From: Zeus faber
Lineage: Eukaryota > Chordata > Actinopteri > Zeiformes > Zeidae
Length of the DNA: 64,000 bases
Direction of reading: 5' to 3'
Assembly: GCA_960531495.1 (NCBI GenBank)
Contig: OY482848.1
Location: forward strand, 20,873,397 to 20,937,396
Every line of letters starts with the position of its first letter. The stretch's first letter is position 1. The translations under genes were made by a program, and so were the position numbers. Below are positions 1 through 59,310 of this stretch, one piece after another. The notes below the pieces were generated by a model. That model worked only from the letters and a program-made list of their open reading frames with translations. It was not told the origin of the DNA and ran no database searches.

Positions 1-306
1 TTCCCAAGGGACAGTGAGTACCAAGAGGATGACCTGCTTTGAGGCTTTGGAGAGCAGCACCATGTCTGGCCTCAATGTTATGACGGCAACATTTACTGGG
101 AACTTGAGTTGCTTTCCCAGGCCAACCTTCAGCTCCCAGTCCTGTGCAGTTGAGATCAGGCGGGAGGAGGAGGTCCTGGAAGCTGCTGTTGGTCTCTGAC
201 CAGCTCTGATGAAAGCAATGGTTTTCTTCACTGGACAGATGAGCTTGCAGTGGTTAATTCCACTGGAGATGGTGTCGGCGATGAAAATGTTATGGTGCTG
301 TTTCAT
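1..306 (-). pseudogene. C-terminal fragment of a retroelement-type protein, open at the left edge
   Basis: Reading the minus strand from an ATG at 306-304 gives 102 codons with no stop, running off the window. The end of the visible frame contains DWELKVGLGKQLKFP, then TLRPDMVLLSKASKQV, then LTVPWE. This block (W-E/M-V-G-K-FP, LRPD-V-L-S, LTVPWE) is one I know from the C-terminal part of uncharacterised fish proteins linked to reverse transcriptases. The RPD...LTVPWE segment resembles a restriction-like nuclease fold, but that is inference. Upstream of 306 the frame can continue a few codons, so the ATG is not necessarily a true start. The next part of the protein (E-AHERK-KY, then VEVGCRGF in relatives) would lie left of the window. 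The consensus 'LLELTVPWE' reads 'LLVLTVPWE' here, so a usually acidic residue is lost. Probably a fossil of a mobile element, but no inactivating stop is visible in this part. Confidence 0.55.
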
Positions 307-3281: not shown

Positions 3282-6200
3282 TGAGAGAGGATCTTACAAG
3301 GGGACTGCACAGAAGAGGGAAGCTACAGTATGTGTAGCACCCCTTTGCTCTCCGGGCAATTAATAGGGGTAACTAACCTGAGTTCTTTAAATAAAGTGTT
3401 ATCTCTGACTATTAGTGCGTGTTTACTTTGTCTTTTAACTGCGTGTATTAATTACAATGTAGTAAGACTATTATGAATAGTAGGTAACTACCCACTAGTA
3501 AAGGATTAGCCCTTAACTTAACTTTCAGTATTTTAGCCACTCAACATAGTAATTTAAATGCTTACCTTCAAGTAAAGGCTATGGCTATGCATTAAACATC
3601 CAATGCAAATAAACCATTCAACTGCAATACAGATAAGTTTACCTATTTACTTAGAAAAATATATTTACATCTGTACAAGAATAAGAATAAACAAAGAAAA
3701 GTATTTCAGTTCAATACCACTTCAATTCAGTGTGGCATTACCTCAAAAGTTTTGGTCATGTGACCACCAAACCAAATTGTACACAGTTCCAATGAAACAG
3801 TATTTCAACTGAACTGAAACTTTTACCTATAGCCGGCAGCTAACTGAAATTATACTAGGGGTACCCAATGAGTGACCGAGTCAACGGTGCAGGCCTGATA
3901 CGAAGCTCGGGATCGTAGAAGCCACAAACACAAAGGCTGCTTCGCGCCAATGTGCTGAGAACAAAATAAATATTCGCTTGCAACAATTATTCTATTTCTA
4001 CTATTGATTAATTCCTATTTATGAATCAATAAACTTTTACATTCTAGGCCTAATTTTCCATAGGGCTACATATGATATAACAGATCAAACAGATGAAAAA
4101 CTTAGTAAAGACCCAACCTCTATGAGCACGTGTAACAATGTTATATCTTCGATCCATTGAAGTCATCCATTAACAAAGTCATGGCTCACTGCCCAAACTA
4201 ATCCACCATAATGGCCATTTTTTTGGGCAACGAGTAATGATTTGATGTCTGATTGTGATCAATCAATAGTTGAGGCTCTTTTCCCGACGTCGGGCCGACC
4301 AAAAAGGACAATGCTCAGAATGATGAAACTTGCATTAATGCCTTTAACCCCTTCCATAAGCCCTTCCAGCACAGGAAAACCCAAACCACCTTTAATTCAT
4401 CAAATCTGTTGATTATTTGTGAGTAGAGAAAGGTGGAACCCCCCTAGAACGTCATCTTTAGTCTTAAGTCAACATTTAAGGGCAAAATACATAAGGTTTT
4501 GACTGGATTTAAGGTTGTACTAATGAGCTGTGAGTACCATGAGTACTATGCCGCCTGATGAAGAGATGGAACAGAGATGGACTGTTAACTTTACTGGGGT
4601 TGACCAAATCAACTCCCTAATTTAGCAGAATAACAAGTGGAAATATTAAGAGATGTTCTTAATTCAGCAAATCCTCTCAAGTAAATCTATCCATTCGGTA
4701 GGTGACATGTCTGCCTTAATGTCCCCAACGTTATCAGGATTTAGTGGACAGCCGATCATTCTCTGCCACCGTGGACTTAATTAAATCTGGATTATGTGGA
4801 CCACACCTCATTGGGCATTATCCAGTTTAGTTTACCCCATGGACAATCGCCTACGAGGGAAAGTAAGGATCGTTGGTTTTTATTTTTGTGTGTAGCGCAT
4901 TCAAAATTAAGATCTTTCAACAAGACAGTCACAAATTTCTTTGCCAACCCCCCGAGGATCTAAATGAAAGGCTTTGGACACTAAGACCAAAGATGAGATT
5001 TTGCTTGAAAATGAGCGCTCAACCGATCATATCCATTAAAGGATTTGAAGGATGTTGCCGAGCAGGAGTCTCCCATGCTGGGGAGTCAAGCAATGGAACA
5101 TTGAGCTTCAAATGATGAACAGAGAAAGGAATGGGAAACCTTAATTTCATACATCCCATTGGCCGCTGAGAAGGCTATCATTCGCAGGCCAGTCTGGGAA
5201 ATATGTCATAATATGAGATAATATGAATGATATGTGATTTGTTCTTGCTTCAAAGTACATTCATGGTTGTTTGCTCACGTTCATGTAAAATGAGTGCAAC
5301 AAATGCATTGAAGAGAATGAAGGTCAAGCGGCGGCCTTTCTCCGCAGGCCTTCAATCCTTTAGCCCGTTTAGTTGTATGACCTTCGCAGAATAACACCAG
5401 CATACAGTACTACATCACCAAAGCGACGGCAGATCTGGTTTCATTTTCTCAAGGAAAAGGTTTTTGCTCGTGAACTTTAGGGAAACAATGAATACTAAAT
5501 CGAAGCACGCTGGACAGATACCTGTTAATAACATATTCAATGAGTGGCGTTAATGCGATTTACCACAGCTGTCAGCCCACGCAAACCCACTTTGTCTTGT
5601 TTTAGATAAGCTCGGGTGCTAGGGGCTAGCCAGAGACGGCCAAAAAAGGTCAACGAAGACGCCGCAAGGGGGAGGCACGGTCATCGCAATCAGGGAAACA
5701 GCCGTTAGCCAAGCCTGGATGGATTGAATAATGCGACCGGCTCCGCCCCAATAGAAAATCAGCAGGAAGCCGCAAGCGTCTTATCTGGTTTCTATATCTG
5801 TTCGGCTGCAGCGCGCACATTGTTTCAATTGAGTTAGCAATCCAAAGCAGATTCAGTCAATTAACGGGAACATTGTTCCACGCTGGCAGTCAGATGGAAA
5901 CATTAAATGATTTTAATACTAGTATCGCACGTTTCTATTGAGTGAGATCATTCGTCTGCTACCAGCGATGCAGATAAACTCCACTGCGCCTTCCTAATTG
6001 ACTAATCAACCCTGAAAAAAATGCTTTGTGCGCAATCATCATGAAATATTCCACCAAAATGCTTAAGTGAAGCGCAAAAAAGGGCAATGAAAGTCTTTTT
6101 TTCTGCAGAGTGTGGCATGCTGTGGATAAACGGCTCCGACAGATTGTCCAGGCAGCGGGAGCGACTAAAGCAAGGACGAGCTGGGATACAAAACAACAAC

Positions 6201-17784: not shown

Positions 17785-18420
17785 CTGACATCCAGGTGCC
17801 CTGCGATGCGCACACTCGGCTACGTGGATGGGTGCTTGGGTTGATGGGGCGTCTGGCTGTATGTGGTGGGGTGGGCCACGCCCTTGCACAGGGCGCAGGT
17901 AGGGATGGGGGCCCCGCCGCCTCAGAGGTGAGGGTTATTATCCTCTGGGCCGAGCGTAGGGGTTGCTCTGCAGGCTTCGGGTTTCTCTGGAGGCTGGGCG
18001 GGTCTTCTGTGGCTCCAGGGCAGGGTGCTCGGGGCTTTCTTGTGGTCGTGGGGAGTCTATACGGCCTCAGGACTCAGGGGTGGCTTTGGTGCCTTTTCCT
18101 CTGCTTGGGGACGCCACCCTTCTGGTTACATCCCTCTCCTTCCCTTCCTTATTTACTGCCATTACTATGACAGGAAGAGGCCACGTGCTGAATTGCTGTT
18201 GCAGTGTTCCTGGACACAATTAAATCTGTTTTTTCGATACATGTTGTCATCTGACATTTCTGTGTTGATGTTTTCCCACGTACACTTTGCTTTGTTCTGT
18301 TGGTCTCAGCCGCGGTGATTCTCCCCCTCTTGGAGTAGTGATTAGTTGTTTAAAGACCAAAACATGGTGAGATAGTTCTCCAAAGAGGGGCATTGGTGGG
18401 GGTTCTGTGTAACAAAAAAC
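17785..18420 (+). repeat. GC-rich dispersed repeat, copy B
   Basis: Begins with the same 21 bases as copy A. It keeps the 3' half also seen in copy C: 'tttactgccattactatgac', 'aggaagaggccac', 'atgttgtcatctgac', 'cggtgattctccccctcttg', 'agtagtgattagttgttta' and 'ggttctgtgtaacaaaaaac'. The A-rich end followed by unrelated DNA suggests a poly-A-like 3' terminus and plus orientation. Open frames of 86-124 codons cross it without resemblance to a known protein. Confidence 0.75.
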
Positions 18421-22504
<4,084 letters not shown>

Positions 22505-22962
22505 CAAGATCAACAGACAGACAAACAGACAGACAGACAAATAGACAGACAGATATAAAAGTAGGTAGGAAAGTAGGGAGGTAGGTAGATAAGTAGGCAG
22601 GAAGGTAGGTAGGTAGGTAGGAAGGAAGATAGGTAAGTTAGTAGGAAGGTAGGAAGGTAGATAGGTAAGTAGGTAGGAGGGTAGGTAAGTAAATAGGTAG
22701 GTAGGTAAGTATGTAGGTAGGTAGGAAGGTATGTAAGTAGATAAGTAAGTGGGAAGATAGGTAAGTAAGAAGGTAGGAAGGTACTAGGAAGGTAGGCAGG
22801 AAGATAGGTAAGTTAGTAGGAAGGTAAGTATGTAGGTAGGTAGGAAGGTATGTAAGTAGATAAGTAAGTGGGAAGATAGGTAAGTAAGAAGGTAGGAAGG
22901 TACTAGGAAGGTAGGCAGGTAAGTAGGTAGGAGGGTAGGTAAGTAAATAGGTAGAGCTGGTG

Positions 22963-23161
22963 GAGGGATGGTAGCTCAGGAGGTAGAGCTGGTGGTCTAG
23001 TAATCTAAAGGTTGGTTGGTTCGATCCCAAGCTCCTCCTGCTAGCATGCTGTAGTGTCCTTGAGCAAGACACTTAACCCCTAATTGCTCCTGATGGCTGC
23101 GTCCGTCGGTGTTTGAATAATTGTAAGTCGCTTTGGATAAAAGCGTCTGCTAAATGTAATG
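22963..23161 (+). mobile_element. tRNA-derived SINE, copy 1
   Basis: The head gggatggtagctcagg supplies an RNA polymerase III A box and ggttcgatcc the B box, as in an alanine-tRNA-like promoter. The body has 'gctagcatgctgtagtgtcc', 'agacacttaacccctaattg' and 'gatggctgcgtccgtcggtg'. The tail is ttggataaaagcgtctgcta plus aatgtaatg, the LINE-shared tail frequent in fish SINEs. It is inserted inside the GTAG array. About 199 bp and near full length. It is not a functional tRNA: the region between the two boxes does not fold as a cloverleaf. Confidence 0.88.
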
Positions 23162-23343: not shown

Positions 23344-23550
23344 CATTTACATTTAGTCATTTAGCAGACGCTTTTATCCAAAGCGACTTACAATTGTTCA
23401 AACACTGACGGACGCAGCCATCAGCAGCAATTAGGGGTTAAGTGTCTTGCTCAAGGACACTACAGCATGCTAGCAGGAGGAGCTTGGGATCGAACCAGCA
23501 ACCTTTAGATTACTAGATCACCAGCTCTACCGCCTGAGCTACCATCCCCA
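23344..23550 (-). mobile_element. tRNA-derived SINE, copy 2 (inverted)
   Basis: Reverse complement of copy 1: tail first (acatttagtcatttagcaga), then the body, then the B box (gatcgaacc) and A box (tgagctaccatcccc). About 207 bp. It lies 182 bp from copy 1 in opposite orientation, in the same array. Confidence 0.88.
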
Positions 23551-26389: not shown

Positions 26390-29300
26390 ATGGTGCTCTT
26401 AAAATATTCCGCATTGGAACTCATGAATCTCTCCTGTCACACCACTCCAAACTGCCTCACCGATATCAAATCCATCGGACTCCTGCGCCGCCCTGGCTAT
26501 GTCCACAGGGCTGGGAGCTGTAAGTCTGTTTACTCAGATGGCACTATTCCTTCCAAAATGTCGAATCGGCGGAGGCAACGTCATCACAGTAAATCACGTG
26601 TGCATTCTGTTCTGCAGCCGCTGGTCTGTGTTGACAGGCTCGTTCCTCTTATCTAGCCTGCCTTACCTTCCATAGTTAAAACTGCAACTTTCATGCTACA
26701 GAATGCACGATCTCTCAGCAATAAATCACTGCTCATTGATGACATTATCATGGACCAGAAAATTGACTTTGTCTGTTTAACAGAAACTTTGCAAGTTCAA
26801 CAGGACTTTATTATACTCAACCAAGCGACCCCCCTGGATATGTGTACATTCAGAAGCCCCGCTCCATAGGTCGTGGTGGTGGGTAGGTTGTAATACAGAC
26901 ATCCTGGCCAAAGAACTCTTTTCACCTCTTTTGAATGTGTTGCATTCTCACTCACTGCACACCTCCAGGTTGTCCTCATCTATCGCCCCCCGAAAGCCTC
27001 CACCACCTTTTTCTCTGAGCTGTCTGAGCTGCTTACCTCTGTCTGTTCCATGTCCCAATCTGCCCTTCTGCTCGGTGACTTCAACATCCACATGGACTCC
27101 ACCGGCTGTACGTTTGCCATGGATTTCCTGTCACTGTTTGACTGTTTTAACCTCACACAGCACGTTCAAGGTCCCCCCATGCCAAACGGGGCACACTTGA
27201 TCTGGTGTGCACTACTGGCCCTTCTCCCTCCCATCTTCAGTGCCTCGACCTGTTTCTGTTTCTGACCACCATCTGTCCTGTTCACTGTTCCTGTCCCCCT
27301 GCCCAAGCAATCCGCTAAACGCACCATCATGTTCAGGAACCTCAAGTCATTGAGTACACCAGCCCTGATCAACACCCTTGCGACCCACCTGGCCCTAGAT
27401 CCCCCTGACACCACTGTGGATGGCCTGGTCGCCCACTATAACCCTGCCCTCTCCCTCAGCCTCAGTTCTCTTGCCCCCCTCAAAACCTGGACTGTCTCCT
27501 TCATTCGCCATGCCCCCTGGTACACCTCTGAACGCCACACAATGAAGGCCAGCGGCCGCCAGCTGGGGAGGCTCTACAAGAGATCAGGCCTCACTTTCCA
27601 CCTCCAGGCCTTAAAACAACATGTGATCTCCTTCAAAGAAGCTCTCTCCAGAACAAGGATTCAATACTACTCAACCCTCATTGGCAATCAGCAAAGCCAC
27701 CCCATTGTTCCCCACCATAAACCGGCTGCTACACCCCCCTGATCCCCCTCAATCCCCCGACCCCTCTGACCGCTGCTACATGTTCAAGGAGTTTTTTCAT
27801 GCCAAAGTGGACACCATATCCCAGCATCTCCAATCGCCTGCCCTCCAACACACACCCAACAATAGGGTGTTGCACCCCCAGCTGCCAGCCCACCCCAGTG
27901 CTGTCTCTCCTCCTTCTCCCCTGTGGACGTGCCACAAATTATTATGCTGGTCACCAAGGCCAAAGCATCCACCTGCTCTCTGGACCCCATGCCAACAGCC
28001 CTGGTCAAGGCTTGCCTTGGCATCCCTCTCCCCTGTCATGGTTGCCATCATTAACGCCTCCTTGAAATCCGGCACGGTTCTCACCAGCTTCAAAATGGCC
28101 TCAATCACTCCAATCATAAAGAAGCCTGGTCTCAACCTGGACAACCCCAACCACTACCTTCCAATCTGCAACATTCCGTTCCTAAGCAAAATCCTGGAAC
28201 GTGCAGTTGCTGCCCAACTCCAACAGCACATGTCCAACCATGAGCTTCACGAACCCTTTCAATCCGGATTCAGAACCCACCACAGCACAGAGACCGCCCT
28301 CATTAAATTACCAACAACCTCCTCATTGCTGCTGATGCAGGCTACATTAGTATCCTCATCCTTCTTGACCTTTCAGCTGCCTTTGACACAGTCTCACACA
28401 CTATCCTGCTCAACCGTCTATCTGGCTACCCTTGCCTCTCCGGTACTGTTCTCTCCTGGTTCCAATCCTACCTCACCAACAGGAAGCTGGAAGCTTACAT
28501 TTCACTGCATATATGTATGGAAGTATGTATGTATGTATGGAAGTATGTATATGTATGTGACAAATAAAAATCTTGAATCTTGAATCTTGAAAAGCAGTTT
28601 GTCTCTATCGGAGACTCCTGCTGCTCCCCTGGCCCAGTTGACCAAGGCGTGTCTCAAGGCTCCGTGCTTGGGCGCCTCCTCTTCACCATTTACATGCTCC
28701 CCCTTAGTTAGATCATACACCACCACTGTATGTGCTTCCGTACCTACGCAGATGGCACCCAGCTATACCTTAGCACAAAACCATCCTCCCGCCTCCCCCC
28801 TCAGTCTCTTCTAAACTACCTCCACGACATCAAAGTCTAGATGTCTTCAAACATGCTTAAACTCAACAATAACAAAACTGAACTCATGGTTGTGGCTCCC
28901 AAGGCACTGCTCAGGAAGGTTGGAGATCTCGTCTTGGTTGTTGATGGCTGCTCCATCTTCCCATCCTCTGAAGTACGCAACCTAGGCGTCATCTTCGATT
29001 CATCCCTTTCATTCCGGTCATACATCAATTCCATAACCAAATCTGCCTTCTTCCACCTCAAGAACATCTCCAGACTACGCAGATCACTGTCAGAGTCCGT
29101 GGCTGAAACATTAATCCACGCCTTCAGCACATCACCCCCAACCTCATCAATCTTCAGTGGCTCCCTGTCAAATTCCGTATCTCCTAAGAAAGCCTACATT
29201 TAACCTACAAATCCCTCCACACCCTCGCCCCGCAGTACCTAGCTGACCTCCTCCACCCCTGTATGAGGCTTCGAACCTTTGGGGACAGAGCCTTCAGTGT

Positions 29301-29410
29301 GGCAGCCCCCACTCTCTGGAACTCTCTCCCCACTGACATTGGGAATGCTCCATCCCTGGCCACCTTCAAAAGCCTGCTAAAATCCTACCTCTACCTTTAC
29401 TGCCCCTGAC
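26390..29410 (+). pseudogene. L2 ORF2 remnant: AP endonuclease plus reverse transcriptase
   Basis: Domains appear in the expected order but in shifting frames. The endonuclease part shows LQNARSLSNKS (26696), VCLTETL (26771), LLGDFNIHMD (27067-27096) and SDHHLSCSLF (about 27262). The reverse transcriptase part shows ITPIIKKPGL, NPNHYLPICNIPFLSKILE, QSGFRTHHSTETALIKL, then LLDLSAAFDTVSHTILLNRL (28361, frame shifted), QGVSQGSVLG (about 28645) and TYADGTQLYL (28742). The catalytic YADD-type box reads YADG, so one catalytic aspartate is lost. The C-terminal part MLKLNNNKTELMVVAPK and GDRAFSVAAPTLWNSLP is present. The stretch between HAFSTS (about 29130) and WLPV-type text is missing, an internal deletion. 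Full-length relatives are about 1000 codons or less. No function is expected. Confidence 0.85.
28480..28590 (+). mobile_element. Rex1-type LINE 3' end nested in the L2 element
   Basis: The text 'atttcactgcatatatgtatgg', GTAT repeats, 'atgtatgtgacaaataaaaatc' and then (TTGAATC)n matches the 3' ends at 44703-44790 (reverse) and 59210-59310. It splits the L2 reverse transcriptase between TNRK and QFVSIG. So the L2 copy is older than this insertion. Confidence 0.8.
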
Positions 29411-29539
29411 ACTTTTTTTTTTTCTTATTTATCTTTTTTTATTTTGGATTTTCTACCCTGTCTTGTTTTATTATTGTTTTTTTTTTTTTCATTATAAAGT
29501 GTCCTTGGGTTCCTGAAAGGCGCTATATAAATCCCAGTT

Positions 29540-29625
29540 TATATATATATAAATATATATATATATACAGTATATATACAGTATATATACAGCATATAAG
29601 ATATATACAGTATATAAGATGTAAA
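29540..29625. repeat. AT-rich low-complexity with cagtatata units
   Basis: Repeated 'atatatacagtatat' words after the L2 tail. Confidence 0.85.
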
Positions 29626-29672
29626 CTTTCATTCACTGAAACCTTGAACTTGAACACAATCAGCAAACATGT

Positions 29673-29866
29673 GGGGATGGTAGCTCAGGCGGTAACACTA
29701 GTGATCTAAAGGTTGCTGGTTCGATCCCACGCCCCTCCTGCTAGCATGCTGTAGTGTCCTTGAGAAAGACACTTAACCCCTAATTGCTACTGATGGCTGC
29801 GTCCGTCGGTGTTTGAACAATTGTAAGTCGCTTTGGATAAAAGCGTCTGCTAAATGTAATGTAATG
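29673..29866 (+). mobile_element. tRNA-derived SINE, copy 3
   Basis: Same head (ggggatggtagctcaggc), B box (ggttcgatccc), body and tail as copies 1 and 2. About 194 bp. A few bases are missing after the A box compared with copy 2. Confidence 0.88.
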
Positions 29867-31359: not shown

Positions 31360-31439
31360 CATGTGTGTGCGTGCGAACGTGTTCTGCAAACAGGGAAACA
31401 GGGAATGAAGGAACAATGTGATTGTTGTCTGTGTTTGTG

Positions 31440-32078
31440 CAGTCTCGGAACCCATCGGCTATCGGTCTGACGACGATACCTCTGGAAACAACAGCCAATA
31501 AGGGGGTTCCGGTGTAGCCAGTGGATATCCGGTGTACTGGTGGACCGTCCGTGTGGGGAGCAAAAGAGGCGGAATGAATTGGCCGAAATGCAATCTCAGA
31601 AACCCATCGGCTATCGTCTCACGCCATTTTAGCTTTTTATTAGCTTTTTTTAATTCATATGCAGATATCTGTTCATAGAGATTACCCCAAATGTTGTCTG
31701 GACCTGGACACTAACAAAAAGCATTAATCTTTGTGTATTGTGTGGAGAAGTGTTTGACTCATGTGATAAAAGAAACAAATTGCTTTCAAAGTCAGATTAC
31801 AAAATTGCTTTTGAAAAAATGACAGGAGTGGCCGATTCTCCCAGGGCCGTATGCAACTCTTGCAAAGAGGCTCTAATACAGTACAATCACAGCAATGGAG
31901 AAGCTAAATACTAAATTGGCAATTTAAATCTCAATTCTCGCGTCTCAAGTTGCTAATCGGGCTGTGGAATAGGACGTCTTGGCCCGGATATCCACTGGCT
32001 ACACCAGAACATCAGAAATAAGCTGTTGTGCTAAAAAGGTATCGTCGTCAGACCGACAGCTGATGGGTTCCAAGATTG
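31440..32078 (+). mobile_element. Short DNA transposon with ~95-bp terminal inverted repeats and 9-bp target duplication
   Basis: The left arm (31440-31532) and right arm (31984-32078) are near reverse complements. Both contain tcggtctgacgacgatacct and, at the inner end, tgtagccagtggatatccgg, identical in the two arms; the centre of the arms is more diverged. Immediately outside both ends stands gtgtttgtg (31431-31439 and 32079-32087), a perfect 9-bp target-site duplication. The 639-bp length, long arms and 9-bp duplication are most like Mutator-type elements, but the superfamily is not settled. A second copy of the left outer end lies inside at 31591-31625. The interior carries a small zinc-finger-like frame (next entry). 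Confidence 0.8.
31653..31914 (+). CDS. Small reading frame with two CxxC pairs inside the 31440-32078 transposon
   Basis: The frame is open from just after a TAA to a TAA at 31912-31914 (about 86 codons). It reads TPNVVWTWTLTKSINLCVLC, GEVFDSCDKRNKLLSKS, DYKIAFEKMTGVADSPRAVC and NSCKEALIQYNHSNGEAKY. The Cys pairs at 31732-31743 and 31852-31863 are 36 residues apart and have the spacing of a four-cysteine zinc-binding module, vaguely like the first cysteines of ZAD or other transposase zinc fingers. It has no ATG at its start. A good splice acceptor (pyrimidine-rich, ending in gcag at 31661-31664) suggests it is an exon that once joined a transposase. No catalytic domain is present. I do not recognise the family. 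Confidence 0.4.
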
Positions 32079-32133
32079 GTGTTTGTGTGTCTGCCTACTG
32101 TAGTGTGCACACACTCCAACATTGGACACCATC

Positions 32134-32629: not shown

Positions 32630-33565
32630 GGGTGCGGTGCGGGAAGCGGCTGTCTGCGTTGCTACCGCTGCGTGGCTTCTCTGCCCCGGGTGCCGGCAAT
32701 GGTTGGCGGGGGTTGTGTTGGGGGTGTCCTGTACCATGCGCACTCAGCTACCTGGATGGGCACTCGGGGCTTGTGGCCGGGTGGCGCATCTGGTCGGTTC
32801 TGGTGTGGTGGGCCTCAGCTTTGTGCGGGCCGTTGGTGGGCATGAGGCCGGTTCTGGCGGGGTGTCGGTCTGTCAGCATGGGACCTGGCTCCGGGGCTAT
32901 GGTTCGTGCCTGCCACCTGCAGCTGCGTCTTATGCCTGCATGTTGGTTGTATGTGTGCGCTTCTGGTCCCGGGGCCCCTGCACTCTCCGGGACTGGTTTA
33001 TGCTCCTCAGGGCTGTGGTGGGTGTTGCTCCAACTGGAAGCCATTCCAGTGTCCCTGGGGGCTTGGGGGTCTTCTGTGGCTGCAGGGCGGGGTGCTGGGA
33101 GCTTGCCTGGGGTGTTTATACGGCTGCGGGACTCAGGGGTGGCTTCGGGGCCTTTTCCGTTGCTTGGGGACGCTAATACCAATTTTATACAACAGAACCA
33201 ATTGGGATAAGTCCTGTACACTAACCGGTGGACACATCACACACACCCCCAAACACCTTCCTGGTTATATTCTTCTACTTTCCTCCCTCATTTACTGCCA
33301 TAACTATAACAGGAAGAGGCCACATGGGAATTGCTGTTCCGGTTTTCCTGGACTTAATTATGTTTGGTCTATACATGTTGTCATCTGATGTTTCTATGTT
33401 TATGTTTTTCCATTTACATGTTGTTGTTTGGTAGTATGTTTAATTGTCTCACCCGTGGTGATTTTCCCCCTCTTAGAGTAGTGATTAGTTGTTTATAGAT
33501 CAAAACATGGTAAGAGAGTTCTAGAAGTGTGGGATTGGTGGATTGGTGGTTCTGTATAACAAAAA
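32630..33565 (+). repeat. GC-rich dispersed repeat, copy C (long copy)
   Basis: Shares with A, B and D the order: 'cgcactcagctacctggatgggc', 'ggggcttgtggccgggtgg', 'gtgggcatg', 'gactggtttatgctcc', 'gggggtcttctgtggctgcagg', 'ggggccttttccgttgcttgg' and, after an A+T-richer spacer, 'tttactgccataactataac', 'aggaagaggccacatg', 'atgttgtcatctgatg', 'gtggtgattttccccctctt', 'ggttctgtataacaaaaag'. It extends about 100 bp further 5' than A and B. Long open frames on both strands (157-192 codons) exist because stop codons are rare in this composition. Confidence 0.78.
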
Positions 33566-37113: not shown

Positions 37114-37214
37114 AAAAGCGAGCTCTCAAAGTAGGAATGTGAGCTTCTGACAGGACCACAATCCGGCTCTGTTTGGTGGTTCTGCTCTGTTTTTCCAAAT
37201 TAAAGAGATACACA

Positions 37215-37345
37215 TCTTGTTAATTGGGTAAAACAGAGCAGAATTTTATTTTTTTTCATGAAAACTTATCTCGTTAATTCAAGAAAAACAGAGCAGAATT
37301 ATTTTTCATTAAAACTTATCTGGTTAATTCAGAAAAACAGAGACA
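37215..37345. repeat. Tandem repeat, period about 58 bp
   Basis: About 2.3 imperfect copies with the shared words aaaacagagcagaatt and aaaacttatct.gttaattc. Confidence 0.7.
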
Positions 37346-44704: not shown

Positions 44705-44705
<1 letters not shown>

Positions 44706-45275
44706 GATTCAAGATTCAAGATTCAAGATTTCTATTTGTCACATACATATACATACTTTCATACATATATGCAGTGAAATGTAATGCAACACACCCGGTG
44801 ATAGCACACAATATGTCCTAGGAAAAAAATAAAAGTAAAAAATTATTTTCTAATAGACCGACTAACTGACTCCTCAACGTAATACAGCAAGTTGAATACT
44901 TATAGAATAAGATAAAAATATATAGAATAAAATACAATAAAAATAAAATGAAATAAAATGGAATAGATAGAGGGAATATACCTATGTATATACAGATATG
45001 TGCATTTAAAGTGCCATGTGAATTAAAGTGGCATGTGAATGTGAATAAAGTGAGGTAGTGTTTGGGATAATACAGCACAGTATACAACAGTACGGCGCAG
45101 CAATACGGCATCACGAACAACCCTGAACAGTGACACAGTATGTGGTACAGTATGCTACATACAGTACAGTAGGTAGTGGAGCCTATGTGTTAGGACCCCT
45201 GGTGAGGTCAGCATTGACAGTTCTAATGGCTTGCGGGAAAAAACTCCGTCTCAGTCTCTCTGTTCTCGCTGGGTG
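44703..45275 (-). mobile_element. Rex1/Babar-like LINE 3' end, minus strand
   Basis: Read on the minus strand it begins 'gagactgagacggagtttttt', then 'gcaagccattagaactgtcaatgctgacctcaccaggggtcc', matching 58700-58780. A long A+T-rich 3' untranslated region follows with 'tactgtatgtagcatactgtac'. It ends in 'catttcactgcatatatg', 'gtgacaaata' and (TTGAATC)n. Only the last codons of the reverse transcriptase are included. Confidence 0.8.
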
Positions 45276-45550
45276 ACTGCGGAATTATAATACGGGTTAA
45301 TCCGGGTGCTGGAGGAATGCCGGCTTCTCAGATTCCCGGAGCTTTGGCGGTCCTCTAGATGGCTGTTGACCCCATACGCCAAACCCTCATCGCAAGAGAC
45401 GAACGTTAAGAAAGCTTCCGGCCCCGGAATCGGACCGATCAGCGCTAATTAGGTCCAATCAGCTAATTAGGGAGATTCGGGACAGCTGCAGGAAGGAAGC
45501 CGTGCTGCTGTCTGCAGCCGCGGCATCACAAAGCCCCTTGGTCCACAACA
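45276..45550. repeat. Diverged copy of the 53158-53895 repeat
   Basis: 'gagacgaacgttaagaaagcttccggccccggaatcggacc...gctgcaggaaggaagccgtgctgctgtctgcagccgcgg...ccccttgg' follows the same order as 53380-53510 and 53745-53890. Probably a non-coding part of a mobile element. Confidence 0.55.
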
Positions 45551-46426: not shown

Positions 46427-48696
46427 TGTATATAGGGAGATCTACCTTTCCCAATCACTGGAGGCTGTGGTTCTGGTCACGCGTGGTGAAAATCACATTT
46501 TGGAATTATCTCTGGTTCAAACTGTTGGCGGTGCCTCCGTCCGTGGCGATTCCTGGTTCACACCGATCACAGCGGTGAGCTCGTGACTTCAGGATGCCAG
46601 CTAACTACAGTATCTTGATGATTTCAGAAGTAATTTTTTCCACAAATTGGTCCCTTCTTGTGAGCCTACCTCTGTAGTCTGAATTTAAAAGCTATTATAT
46701 GGATAGATTTAATAACAAGGAGCTAAGTCTTAGGTGACGCTGCTTTTTTTCATCCATTGTATTTTTGTCCGTTAAGGATGACGGAGGCATGAAACCAAGT
46801 CTCCATGTCTCCATGATAACCACACAATGAATACATGAATACATGTATTAATTGTGTGGTTATCACTACTCACTTCTATGTTAAAGGACTGCTCTGCTTT
46901 TCGTCAAGCCAATCCTTATGTTTTATCATTGGGATAGTTGGAGAATCGGCATCTGGTTTTGAGAGAATCACTCGGGTTGAACCTAAATAAGGTTTCGGTT
47001 CAAAAATACCTCTTTTAATAGTTTATTCCTCTACCATTTACAAGCATCTTTTGGGATTCCTTGGCTGACGCGAGCTTGGCCTTTTCATTCCACACAGTGC
47101 AAGTGTTCTCTGGATTAATTGTGATATTTCTCTCCACCCCTGGAGTCTTATTCCAAAGGCACTGGGTTCCTCCTTGCATGACGGCGTGATCTGTGAAATT
47201 TTAAGCAGCACTCTTTCTTTCCTTGCCATTTATTTATTGTCGGGCGGCCGAACGGAGGCTCTTTGAGGAGTGAAACCGAGATGACAGCCAAATCAAATCT
47301 CCCTTTTCCACCAAGGCCTGCTTGTAATAGTTTGTCACTTGTGATTTCTCAAATTTGTCCAGAATATTGCAGATTAATGAGGAGGCTGCCACATGAACCG
47401 GGGCTTGTGTTCGCGGTCCCGATGGAAGAGGCAGTTATTTTGATGCATTATGTCATTAAAAATGACGGCCTATTCAAGGTATTGTATTTGTATTTATTAA
47501 TCAGTATCGCTAGTTATTGTTTGTTTTGTAATTTTTATTATTTGATTTGTAATGTTTCTCAAATAATATTGTTATTACCATTTATATATATACAGTATAT
47601 AGGGAATTACGGCCTATTCAAAGTATTGTATTTGTATTTGTTAATCAGTATCATTAGTTATTGTTTGTATTTAATTTGTATTATTTGGTCTGTAATGTAT
47701 CTCAAATAATATTGTTATTACCATTTATATTTATAGAATTATATTTAAATATAATTCATATACAGTTATATTATAACTATATGAATAATTTGCGTATTAA
47801 TAATACCATGATCTATTACAATCAAGTGGTGAAAATCCAGGTATACTGCAGTGTGTGAAACTAAACCTTGTCTTGTTAAAATATTTTTTCAACAAGCCAA
47901 GGTTCACTCAAGCTCTTTTTGAGTTTAGGATTCATATCTAGTAACAAACATTATAATTTAAAACGTACACGCATCACTGTGCAGACAGAAGCGATGCGGC
48001 ATGCATGTGGATGCCTGTTTGTGTGGATTCAAACGCGCATGGGAGCAAATGTGTGCGTTTCGCAACACACACCGGGCAAAAACCTACAACACGCGGTTCA
48101 GAGTTCACCGCGTGGGAGCTATCAGCTGTGTGGAAAAAATAAAATTGAGCCAAAATAAAACAAATGAGTTTCAAAATGACAGCCAACATATTAAGTACAT
48201 ATTCCTGTATCCTTTCAGCCCAAATATTATTCCACAACAGAAGGCTTTGTGAATGACTTGTGTTTTACATAAATAACCCCTCAGTGTTTGGGCACGTACG
48301 TACATTTCCTTGCCAGGTGTGTGAGTGTGTATGCATGTGTGGAAGGAAGGACCAAATGGGAGGCCATTAAGAGGGCGGGAAGAAGGGTTGTGTGTGGGGT
48401 GGGCAGCAATCTGCTGCTGCTTCCATGTCCGTTGTCGAGGATTTAATTGAGAAAATCAATTTGTCGCGACACTTTGCCGATAAAAGTAATTCCCCCCTCG
48501 TTCCCCCTCCCCGCCCCCTCCGCTGATACCTGCTCTGGACTTAAGACGGGGGGGGTCGGTGTTTGGATATCTGTGAGGTTAGTGGAGTTTGGTTAAGGGG
48601 GAGGGGGGTGGAGTGAGTGGGAGAGAGACAGAGCATGGACTCCAGCATTAGACGTAATGGTCAATGCATCATGTGAATGTGCAGCATGACACTCAC

Positions 48697-52044: not shown

Positions 52045-52861
52045 ATTGAGAACTGGTGTTTCTGTGGGGGCGGGGCACTGGTGGGCTGTTGGGGTGTTGT
52101 TGGCCGGGGGGCAACCAGGTGGGCCCCCTGCCGGCTGGGTTCAGGTTCTGGTGGCTTGCGCCTGGTGCTGGGTGGTCTCTGGCCTGCTTCGACCCGGCGG
52201 GGCTTCTTTCCAGGGGTGGTGGAGGGCCCGCATATCTGGCTGTCTGCGGGCATCGGTGGAAGCTGAAATCCTTGTCCTGTGCCAAACAAACTCGGCTATT
52301 TAGATGGGAGCTTGGGGCTTATGGCCGGGTGGGGCATCTGGGGCCGGTTGCAGTATGGTAGGCTTCACATTTGCGCGAGGTGTTGGTGGGCATGGGTGAT
52401 CCGCCGGCTCACCTGCGGTGGCGGGTGATTCTGGCAGGGTGCAGGTCTGTCGGTGCAGGGACTTGGCTCCGGGCCTATGGTCCGTGCCTGGCATCTACAG
52501 CCCGGGTTCTGTGCCTGCGTCTTATGCCTGCACATAGGGGTGGGTTTTATGTGTGTGCCTCAGGGGTGCAGAGTCTTCTTGCGCTCTCTGGGACTGGTTT
52601 ATGCTCCTACGGCTGTGCGTGGGTGTTGCTCTGCAGGCTCCTGGCTTCTCTGGGGGCTGGGGTGGTCTTCTCTGGCTGCAGGGCTTACCTGTGGTTGTGG
52701 CGTGTCTATACAGTTATGGGACTCATGGGTGACTGCAGGGCCTTTTCCTCTGTATGGAGGCGCTATGATATAATTCCGACCTTTTACACCAGAACTAATT
52801 GGGACTGTGTGCCGTACACTCACTGGTGGCCACAACACACACACACAAACACGGACACACA

Positions 52862-52918
<57 letters not shown>

Positions 52919-53130
52919 CACTTGCTTTGAACTCACCCTCGAACCCAGTCCTGATTACATCCCTCTCCTTCTCTCCCTCATTTACTGTCATAACTATCAC
53001 AGGAAGAGGCCATGTAGCGAATTGCTGCTCCAATTTTCCTGGACATTACTAATGAATTAGTTTTGTTGATAAATGTTGTCATTTCATGTATATAATGTAC
53101 AGTATGTTTACTTTTTCCCATGTTTCCTTT
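52045..53130 (+). repeat. GC-rich dispersed repeat, copy D (long copy)
   Basis: Order matches copy C: 'aactcggctatttagatggg', 'gcttggggcttatggccgggtgg', 'gtgggcatggg', 'gactggtttatgctcc', 'ggtggtcttctctggctgcaggg', 'agggccttttcctctgt', then 'accagaactaattggga', 'tttactgtcataactatcac', 'aggaagaggccatgt'. It extends about 230 bp further 5' than A and B, and a CA microsatellite (52830-52917) has expanded in its middle. The 3' end decays after about 53060. The 229-codon frame running through it and into the CA tract is not a gene. Confidence 0.75.
52830..52917. repeat. (CA)n microsatellite inside copy D
   Basis: Interrupted CA units, pure from 52869 to 52916. Confidence 0.95.
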
Positions 53131-58317: not shown

Positions 58318-59310
58318 CCTTGGTGCTTCGAGAGGCTGATTAAGGATCACATCTGCGCCTCCCTCCCCCGCACATTGGACCCACTGCAGTTTGCGTACCG
58401 GCCGAACAGATCCACGGACAATGCGGTCTCCCAGGTACTGCACACCATGCTGATCACCGACAACGATGGGAAGGCCTACCGTGAGGACAATAGCTCACTC
58501 CTGAACGTCAGCAAAAAGAAGGAGCTGACTGTGGACTTTAGGAGGGGATTACAGGCGCCGTTGGTGATGAATGGGACTTCTGTCAACAGGGTGAGCAGCT
58601 TCAAGTACCTGGGAGTCCACATCATAGATGATTTAACATGGACTTTACATACAGACACTCTGATGAGAAAGGCAAGAGCCTCTGCAATCACACAGCGAGG
58701 ACAGAGGGACTGAGATGGAGTTTCTTCTCGCAAGCCATCAGGACTGTCAATGCTGAACTCACCAGGGGTCCTTACAAAAAGCACTGAGACACTCACACAG
58801 GCCCCACTGCCTTCTGTACTGTATGTAGCATACTGTACTGTACTGTACCTCATACTGTATCACTGTTCTGGGTTACTGCATACAATATGCTGTAATGCTG
58901 TTCTGTTCAGTGTTACTGGTTGCTGTGTGGTACTGTTGTATACTGTATTCATTATCTCCATACTCACTTTATTCACATGCACTTTACTGCACAAATCTGT
59001 ATATACAAATTGCATATCCCATAAACATAACTCTATTCCCTTCTATTTTGTATCCCCACTTTGTATTATCTTTTTGAGTCTCATTTTATTTGTATTTTAT
59101 TTAGCATCACGTTGAGTGAGTTTCAGTTAGTTAGCTAGGCAGCAAAAAGGTTAGCTATTATGTTCGGTTTAGTAACTATTGTGCACAATCTCCGGGTACT
59201 TTGCAAAGATATTTCACTGCATATATGTTTGAACGTATGTATATGTATGTGACAAATACATATACATAATACCTCTTGAATCTTAAATCTTGAATCTTGA
59301 AATTGTCCTC
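58318..59310 (+). mobile_element. Rex1/Babar-like LINE, 5'-truncated and internally deleted
   Basis: Covers the start of the reverse transcriptase, a deletion, the connection region, a 3' untranslated region with tactgtatgtagcatactg, and the shared end 'atttcactgcatatatg', 'gtatgtgacaaata', then (TTGAATC)n. The family name is by memory of the protein and the 3' end. Confidence 0.78.
58321..58713 (+). pseudogene. Rex1-like reverse transcriptase with catalytic core deleted
   Basis: The frame reads WCFERLIKDHICASLPRTLD, PLQFAYRPNRSTDNAVSQVL, HTML, then jumps to TDNDGKAYREDNSSLLNVSK, KKELTVDFRRG and SFKYLGVHIIDDLTWTLHT. In intact relatives about 100 residues lie between these two parts, including the [F/L]xDYSSAFNT and FADDT catalytic boxes; here both are gone at about 58460. 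After RKARA the frame is disturbed by an indel, and the usual ending (SFFSQAIRTVNAE, from 58719) is in another frame. No activity is possible. Confidence 0.8.

Follow-up and report, generated by a model that had tools for sequence, protein, structure and literature searches.

A single 639-bp probable DNA transposon with bipartite inverted ends, a 9-bp target duplication and a four-cysteine reading frame in Zeus faber

At one locus in the genome of Zeus faber, two arms that are near reverse complements of one another are each abutted by the same 9-base word and enclose an open frame with four regularly spaced cysteines. This arrangement raises the question of whether the locus is an inserted mobile element and, if so, what kind of parent element and transposase it would derive from. 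We examined it within a window of 64 kb, to which all positions given here refer. The span from 31440 to 32078 (639 bp) is very probably a non-autonomous and likely internally deleted cut-and-paste DNA transposon; its length leaves no room for a transposase gene, and a DDE domain is absent from this copy. In its inverted ends and flanking direct target duplication, features observed in one copy, the element agrees with the terminal-inverted-repeat order of transposons.

Inverted arms and flanking duplication

The left arm (31440-31532, + strand) consists of an outer conserved block, a variable spacer and an inner conserved block, and the same block pattern is found in the right arm (31984-32078, - strand). 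When the left arm was aligned to the reverse complement of the right, 77 of 95 columns were identical (81%), with 18 columns differing, 2 of these being gaps, which bears out the description of the arms as near reverse complements in the initial annotation. The two exact blocks of at least 20 bases reported there are likewise present, with an outer run of 20 and an inner run of 22 identical bases (GGTGTAGCCAGTGGATATCCGG). The element begins with CAGTCTCGGAACCCATCGGC at its left end and, read as the reverse complement, with CAATCTTGGAACCCATCAGC at its right end, giving CAGTC/CAATC termini. Identity is unevenly distributed along the arms, with 40 of 47 outer, 11 of 21 middle and 26 of 27 inner columns identical, and the spacer between the blocks is conserved in length to within 2 bases. 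The arms are thus bipartite, and a Fisher test comparing the middle with the remainder returned p 0.0005, the block limits having been set after the alignment was seen. An inverted duplication decaying evenly along its length would account less well for this bipartite conservation than two transposase-binding sites per end. The arms can be read as carrying two constrained sites at each end, which probably serve transposase binding.

The word gtgtttgtg stands on the + strand at 31431-31439 and again at 32079-32087, the two copies matching exactly and adjoining the arm ends exactly, in agreement with the perfect 9-bp duplication that had been noted on both outer flanks. Because the neighboring bases differ in both the outward and the inward direction, the length of the duplication is exactly 9 bp. 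The + strand of the window has the word at no other place, and the complement of the word is present at 3923 and 52844. Perfect 9-mer matches at the spacing of the element were found at 5 of 63,343 window positions, namely 14856, three neighboring positions at 22641-22643 and the element itself. When the two flanks were joined as they would be in a related empty site, the joined sequence matched nothing else within the 64-kb window.

The end-versus-end score of the element is 57, and when 2000 places of 639 bp were drawn at random from the window, one of them scored higher (65, at 22957). That place is a pair of LINE tails in inverted orientation, so that inverted pairs alone are no proof of transposition, and it is the abutting duplication that carries the case. 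An inverted duplication that arose by chance, or by some route other than transposition, within GT-rich DNA could draw on these inverted LINE tails, which score above the element, and on the GT-rich composition of the flanks, where 223 of 63,754 9-mer pairs match (0.35%), a count that includes GT microsatellites and the duplication itself. Against such an origin, none of 28,390 flank comparisons match once the microsatellites and the duplication are set aside, the 9-bp duplication meets the arm ends exactly, and the blocks keep the length of the spacer between them; we therefore hold this explanation to be very improbable. Taken together, these results support the earlier reading of the locus as a DNA transposon whose insertion duplicated 9 bp of target and whose inverted ends are long.

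Repeats in the window, copy number and age of the element

The window is rich in other repeats, with many microsatellites and four UnaL2 LINE 3' elements above the Rfam gathering score. The inverted LINE tails mentioned above, of UnaL2 type, lie at 22965-23156 and 23358-23548, are 96% identical over 192 bp and are separated by some 200 bp that include a TAGG-type repeat. Sub-threshold matches to Exo_endo_phos_2 (endonuclease) and RVT_1 (reverse transcriptase) were found at 26894-27262 and 27627-28580, and a UnaL2 3' element lies at 29810-29863; judged by these endonuclease, reverse transcriptase and UnaL2 parts, the region from about 26894 to 29863 may be one decayed LINE copy of L2 type. A GC-rich dispersed repeat, 69-83% alike piecewise, is present in four places (2466-2748, 17785-18418, 32725-33565 and 52273-53089), and one open frame scanned in each of the last two places matched no Pfam family at E ≤0.1. 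A further repeat of about 600 bp, LINE-like by eye, has two inverted copies at 44705-45283 and 58681-59297 that are 69% alike; one end of each copy carries a short tandem repeat (AGATTCA in one and TCTTGAATCTTGAAA in the other). Two compact palindromes were also observed, at 37180-37243 (64 bp, 81% self-complementary) and 46814-46865 (52 bp, 92%).

A second copy of the element was not found in the 64-kb window, where blastn at E ≤1 returned, beyond the element itself, its arms and an internal copy of its end, only matches of 17-30 bases. A 20-mer of the inner arm had no match in collections of genome contigs and viral contigs, which cover prokaryotes and viruses and have little bearing on an animal element, and a 29-base pattern of the outer arm had none in the viral contigs, a result that likewise says little about an animal element. 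A 17-mer of the outer arm did match one viral contig (L001), with a best alignment of 24 bases at 92% and a tblastn E-value of 0.75 for the frame, and this match was taken as chance. No description of the element was found among the literature titles and abstract openings listed, a scope that lies outside Repbase, the home of such families. What we say of its family, its copies and its parent is accordingly extrapolated from the single copy in the window.

The observed-to-expected CpG ratio of the element is 0.78; the window as a whole has 0.52, and the two flanks of 1 kb have 0.60 and 0.53. Among overlapping tiles of equal length, 88 of 1243 outside the element reach 0.78 (95 of 1268 when the element's own tiles are included). 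The intact duplication and the CpG ratio are modest signs, and they suggest a fairly young insertion. A moderately recent insertion had been proposed earlier from the preserved identity of the inner arm; the fairly young age is modestly favored by the duplication and the CpG ratio, whereas the inner arm is a poor guide to age, since conserved blocks around a near-random spacer resemble constraint that acted on the ends before insertion. Arm identity is no clock in any case, because the ends of the parent family are constrained and the left and right ends may have differed from the outset.

Internal end and four-cysteine frame

Between the arms, positions 31591-31623 (+ strand) partially repeat the left end in the same orientation (CAATCTCAGAAACCCATCGGCTATCG...), in a stretch that is 85% identical to 31440-31472 over 34 columns and shares an exact 16-mer with it. 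Further in, an open frame of 86 codons plus a stop codon (31912-31914) occupies 31654-31914 (+ strand). The initial annotation had given this frame as 31653-31914; its end was right and its start off by one, as the reading from 31653 is full of stops. A splice-acceptor-like start had also been proposed, and the AG at 31663-31664, with 70% pyrimidines upstream, is a weak candidate for it, two AGs slightly upstream having 75%. Since this acceptor is not the best one nearby and methionine is absent before residue 56, where the first one stands, an assignment of the four-cysteine frame as a putative exon is possible and goes no further.

The four-cysteine segment itself (31732-31863, + strand) reads CxxC-x36-CxxC, and translation of the frame confirmed the reported separation of 36 residues between the CxxC pairs; two more cysteines stand at residues 3 and 37. 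The length of the frame is unremarkable, being reached in 1032 of 5000 sequences obtained by shuffling the 451-bp interior. The pattern CxxC-x(30..45)-CxxC within one open frame appeared in 7 of 5000 such shuffles, the range having been chosen to bracket the 36 residues seen here. In the six frames of the window there is one instance of this pattern.

Pfam searches with the frame resulted in sub-threshold matches only, most of them to zinc families. Two families, zf-AD and FYVE, span the cysteine segment: zf-AD (ZAD) scored 15.8 bits (E 0.017) with a 62-residue piece and 14.4 bits (E 0.048) with the 86-residue frame, below its cut-off of 28 bits, and FYVE scored a similar 14.3 and 14.9 bits. 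The lowest E-values for the 86-residue frame were those of zf-Tbcl_FmdE (0.0052) and zf_PCFS4 (0.0069), each of which covers one CxxC pair. In ten shuffles that kept the cysteines fixed, zf-AD was matched in none, some family was matched at E ≤10 in six, and two reached E-values of about 0.02. A single sub-threshold zinc-ribbon match (E 0.054) came from NCBIfam. Judged from its sequence, a zinc-binding module in the frame is plausible.

Searches for relatives covered several collections. In the protein collection, the 86-residue frame had no homologue, and neither did residues 24-86 within a 400-codon read-through; as no candidate shared three 5-residue words with the query in either search, it is close relatives alone that these searches exclude. 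The peptide pattern of the frame matched 2 stretches in the viral contigs, neither of which was confirmed by tblastn, and in the PDB the 86-residue frame returned one match, an RNA polymerase entry at E 0.72, and a 61-residue piece none. A single-sequence AlphaFold2 model of the frame was poor, with a mean pLDDT of 42.6.

Cut-and-paste elements with this anatomy depend for movement on a transposase supplied from elsewhere, which makes staggered cuts at the target. In the present case, a transposase encoded elsewhere in the genome would have bound both blocks at each end, excised the 639-bp unit and inserted it at a target whose strands had been cut 9 bp apart, after which gap filling by host repair would have produced the 9-bp duplication. 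The four-cysteine frame may be an exon that survives from the parent element and could represent the N-terminal zinc module of the parent's transposase. The third end at 31591-31623 could be an extra binding site, or else filler copied in when gap repair broke off, an event that would also have removed the interior.

Parent element and comparison with known transposons

The origin of the frame and the identity of the parent admit several explanations within the transposon reading. The frame may be captured host sequence, or may have arisen by chance, and be unrelated to the transposase of the parent; to this we give somewhat less than an even chance. The late first methionine, the unremarkable length, the poor structural model and the empty homologue searches, which were of limited sensitivity, all favor such an origin, and the rarity of the cysteine pattern in shuffles speaks against it. 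An autonomous partner encoding a zinc-finger transposase was proposed in the initial annotation; a transposase origin of the frame goes beyond what this copy shows. The element was also proposed to be of Mutator type. Mutator-like elements (MULE/MuDR) have target duplications of 8-11 bp, mostly 9, and typically long inverted ends (PMC6446971), and the 9-bp duplication and long arms observed here agree with both; these traits are common to other groups as well, and with no DDE domain in this copy, membership is not demonstrated. That the element is a true MULE derivative, with a parent encoding a MULE transposase, strikes us as rather unlikely. No transposase sequence, and thus no visible MULE transposase, is present in this copy, evidence for MULEs in chordates is described in the 2019 survey as limited, one sea squirt sequence excepted, and the zinc fingers that this survey reports for them include at least SWIM, FLYWCH, CCHC, C2H2, PHD and RING, none of these being a CxxC-x36-CxxC module (PMC6446971).

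A more speculative explanation, which we consider distinctly unlikely, is a parent from a non-MULE vertebrate lineage with 9-bp duplications, two-part ends of roughly 95 bp each and a transposase that opens with a four-cysteine zinc module resembling ZAD or the RAG1 N-terminal (Chapa) module. In its favor, the zf-AD match, sub-threshold as it is, spans the cysteine segment and is seen in none of the ten cysteine-fixed shuffles, and zinc modules have been described both for the N-terminal part of RAG1 and for Chapaev transposons (PMC4411706, PMC7204232). Against it, that match falls short of 28 bits, FYVE does similarly well, two short zinc families have lower E-values, and six of the ten shuffles matched some family. 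The RAG1 N-terminal / Chapa module and the N-RAG-TP element of Aplysia offer a parallel, a zinc module that is rich in cysteines and carried by mobile DNA (PMC4411706, PMC8355894). The resemblance of our frame to the RAG1 module may be due to chance, and we treat it as a lead: an alignment to one RAG1 N-terminal stretch did not extend beyond the first CxxC pair, and its score was reached in 46 of 1000 cysteine-fixed shuffles. The duplications of RAG-like and Transib elements, moreover, are 5 bp (PMC7204232), which also sets this group apart from the 9 bp observed here.

The superfamily of the 639-bp transposon itself is most likely Mutator-like or else some 9-bp group outside the present classification, and we file the element as a terminal-inverted-repeat transposon whose superfamily is unsettled from one copy. 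By itself the element is one worn non-autonomous transposon, and it would gain greater weight if its family were resolved. If a fish family combined two-block ends with 9-bp duplications and had a zinc module linked to them, its arm blocks and four-cysteine exon would serve as sequence handles. With these the autonomous element could be sought, and the transposase that makes insertions of this type identified.

Among other superfamilies, hAT and P elements generate duplications of 8 bp, which differ from the exactly 9 bp found here. Dada elements have duplications of 6 or 7 bp, shorter than the one seen here, and many lie in multicopy small-RNA genes (PMC8869645); in the window, ARAGORN in its bacterial setting found no tRNA, and no small-RNA gene was found at Rfam gathering scores. 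Merlin is closer, with duplications of 8 or 9 bp and arms of 24-462 bp, and differs in requiring 5'-GG ends (PMC8101967), those of our element being 5'-CA. Rehavkus shares the 9-bp duplication and has arms of 26-400 bp, a range that includes the arms of our element, and differs in that the survey records it from arthropods and annelids only, with a minisatellite before the 3' arm and a PHD finger (PMC6446971); between 31440 and 32078 there is no tandem array, and no PHD family appears in the Pfam list, traits that a deleted copy may have lost. For the three zebrafish 'MuDR' entries given as autonomous, the survey was unable to find a match to MULE transposases and sees a need for re-evaluation (PMC6446971), and Ricksha is still placed under MuDR in a review of human repeats (PMC5753468). 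If a non-MULE lineage of the kind considered above does exist, it could explain some of the fish elements filed as MuDR that have no MULE transposase.
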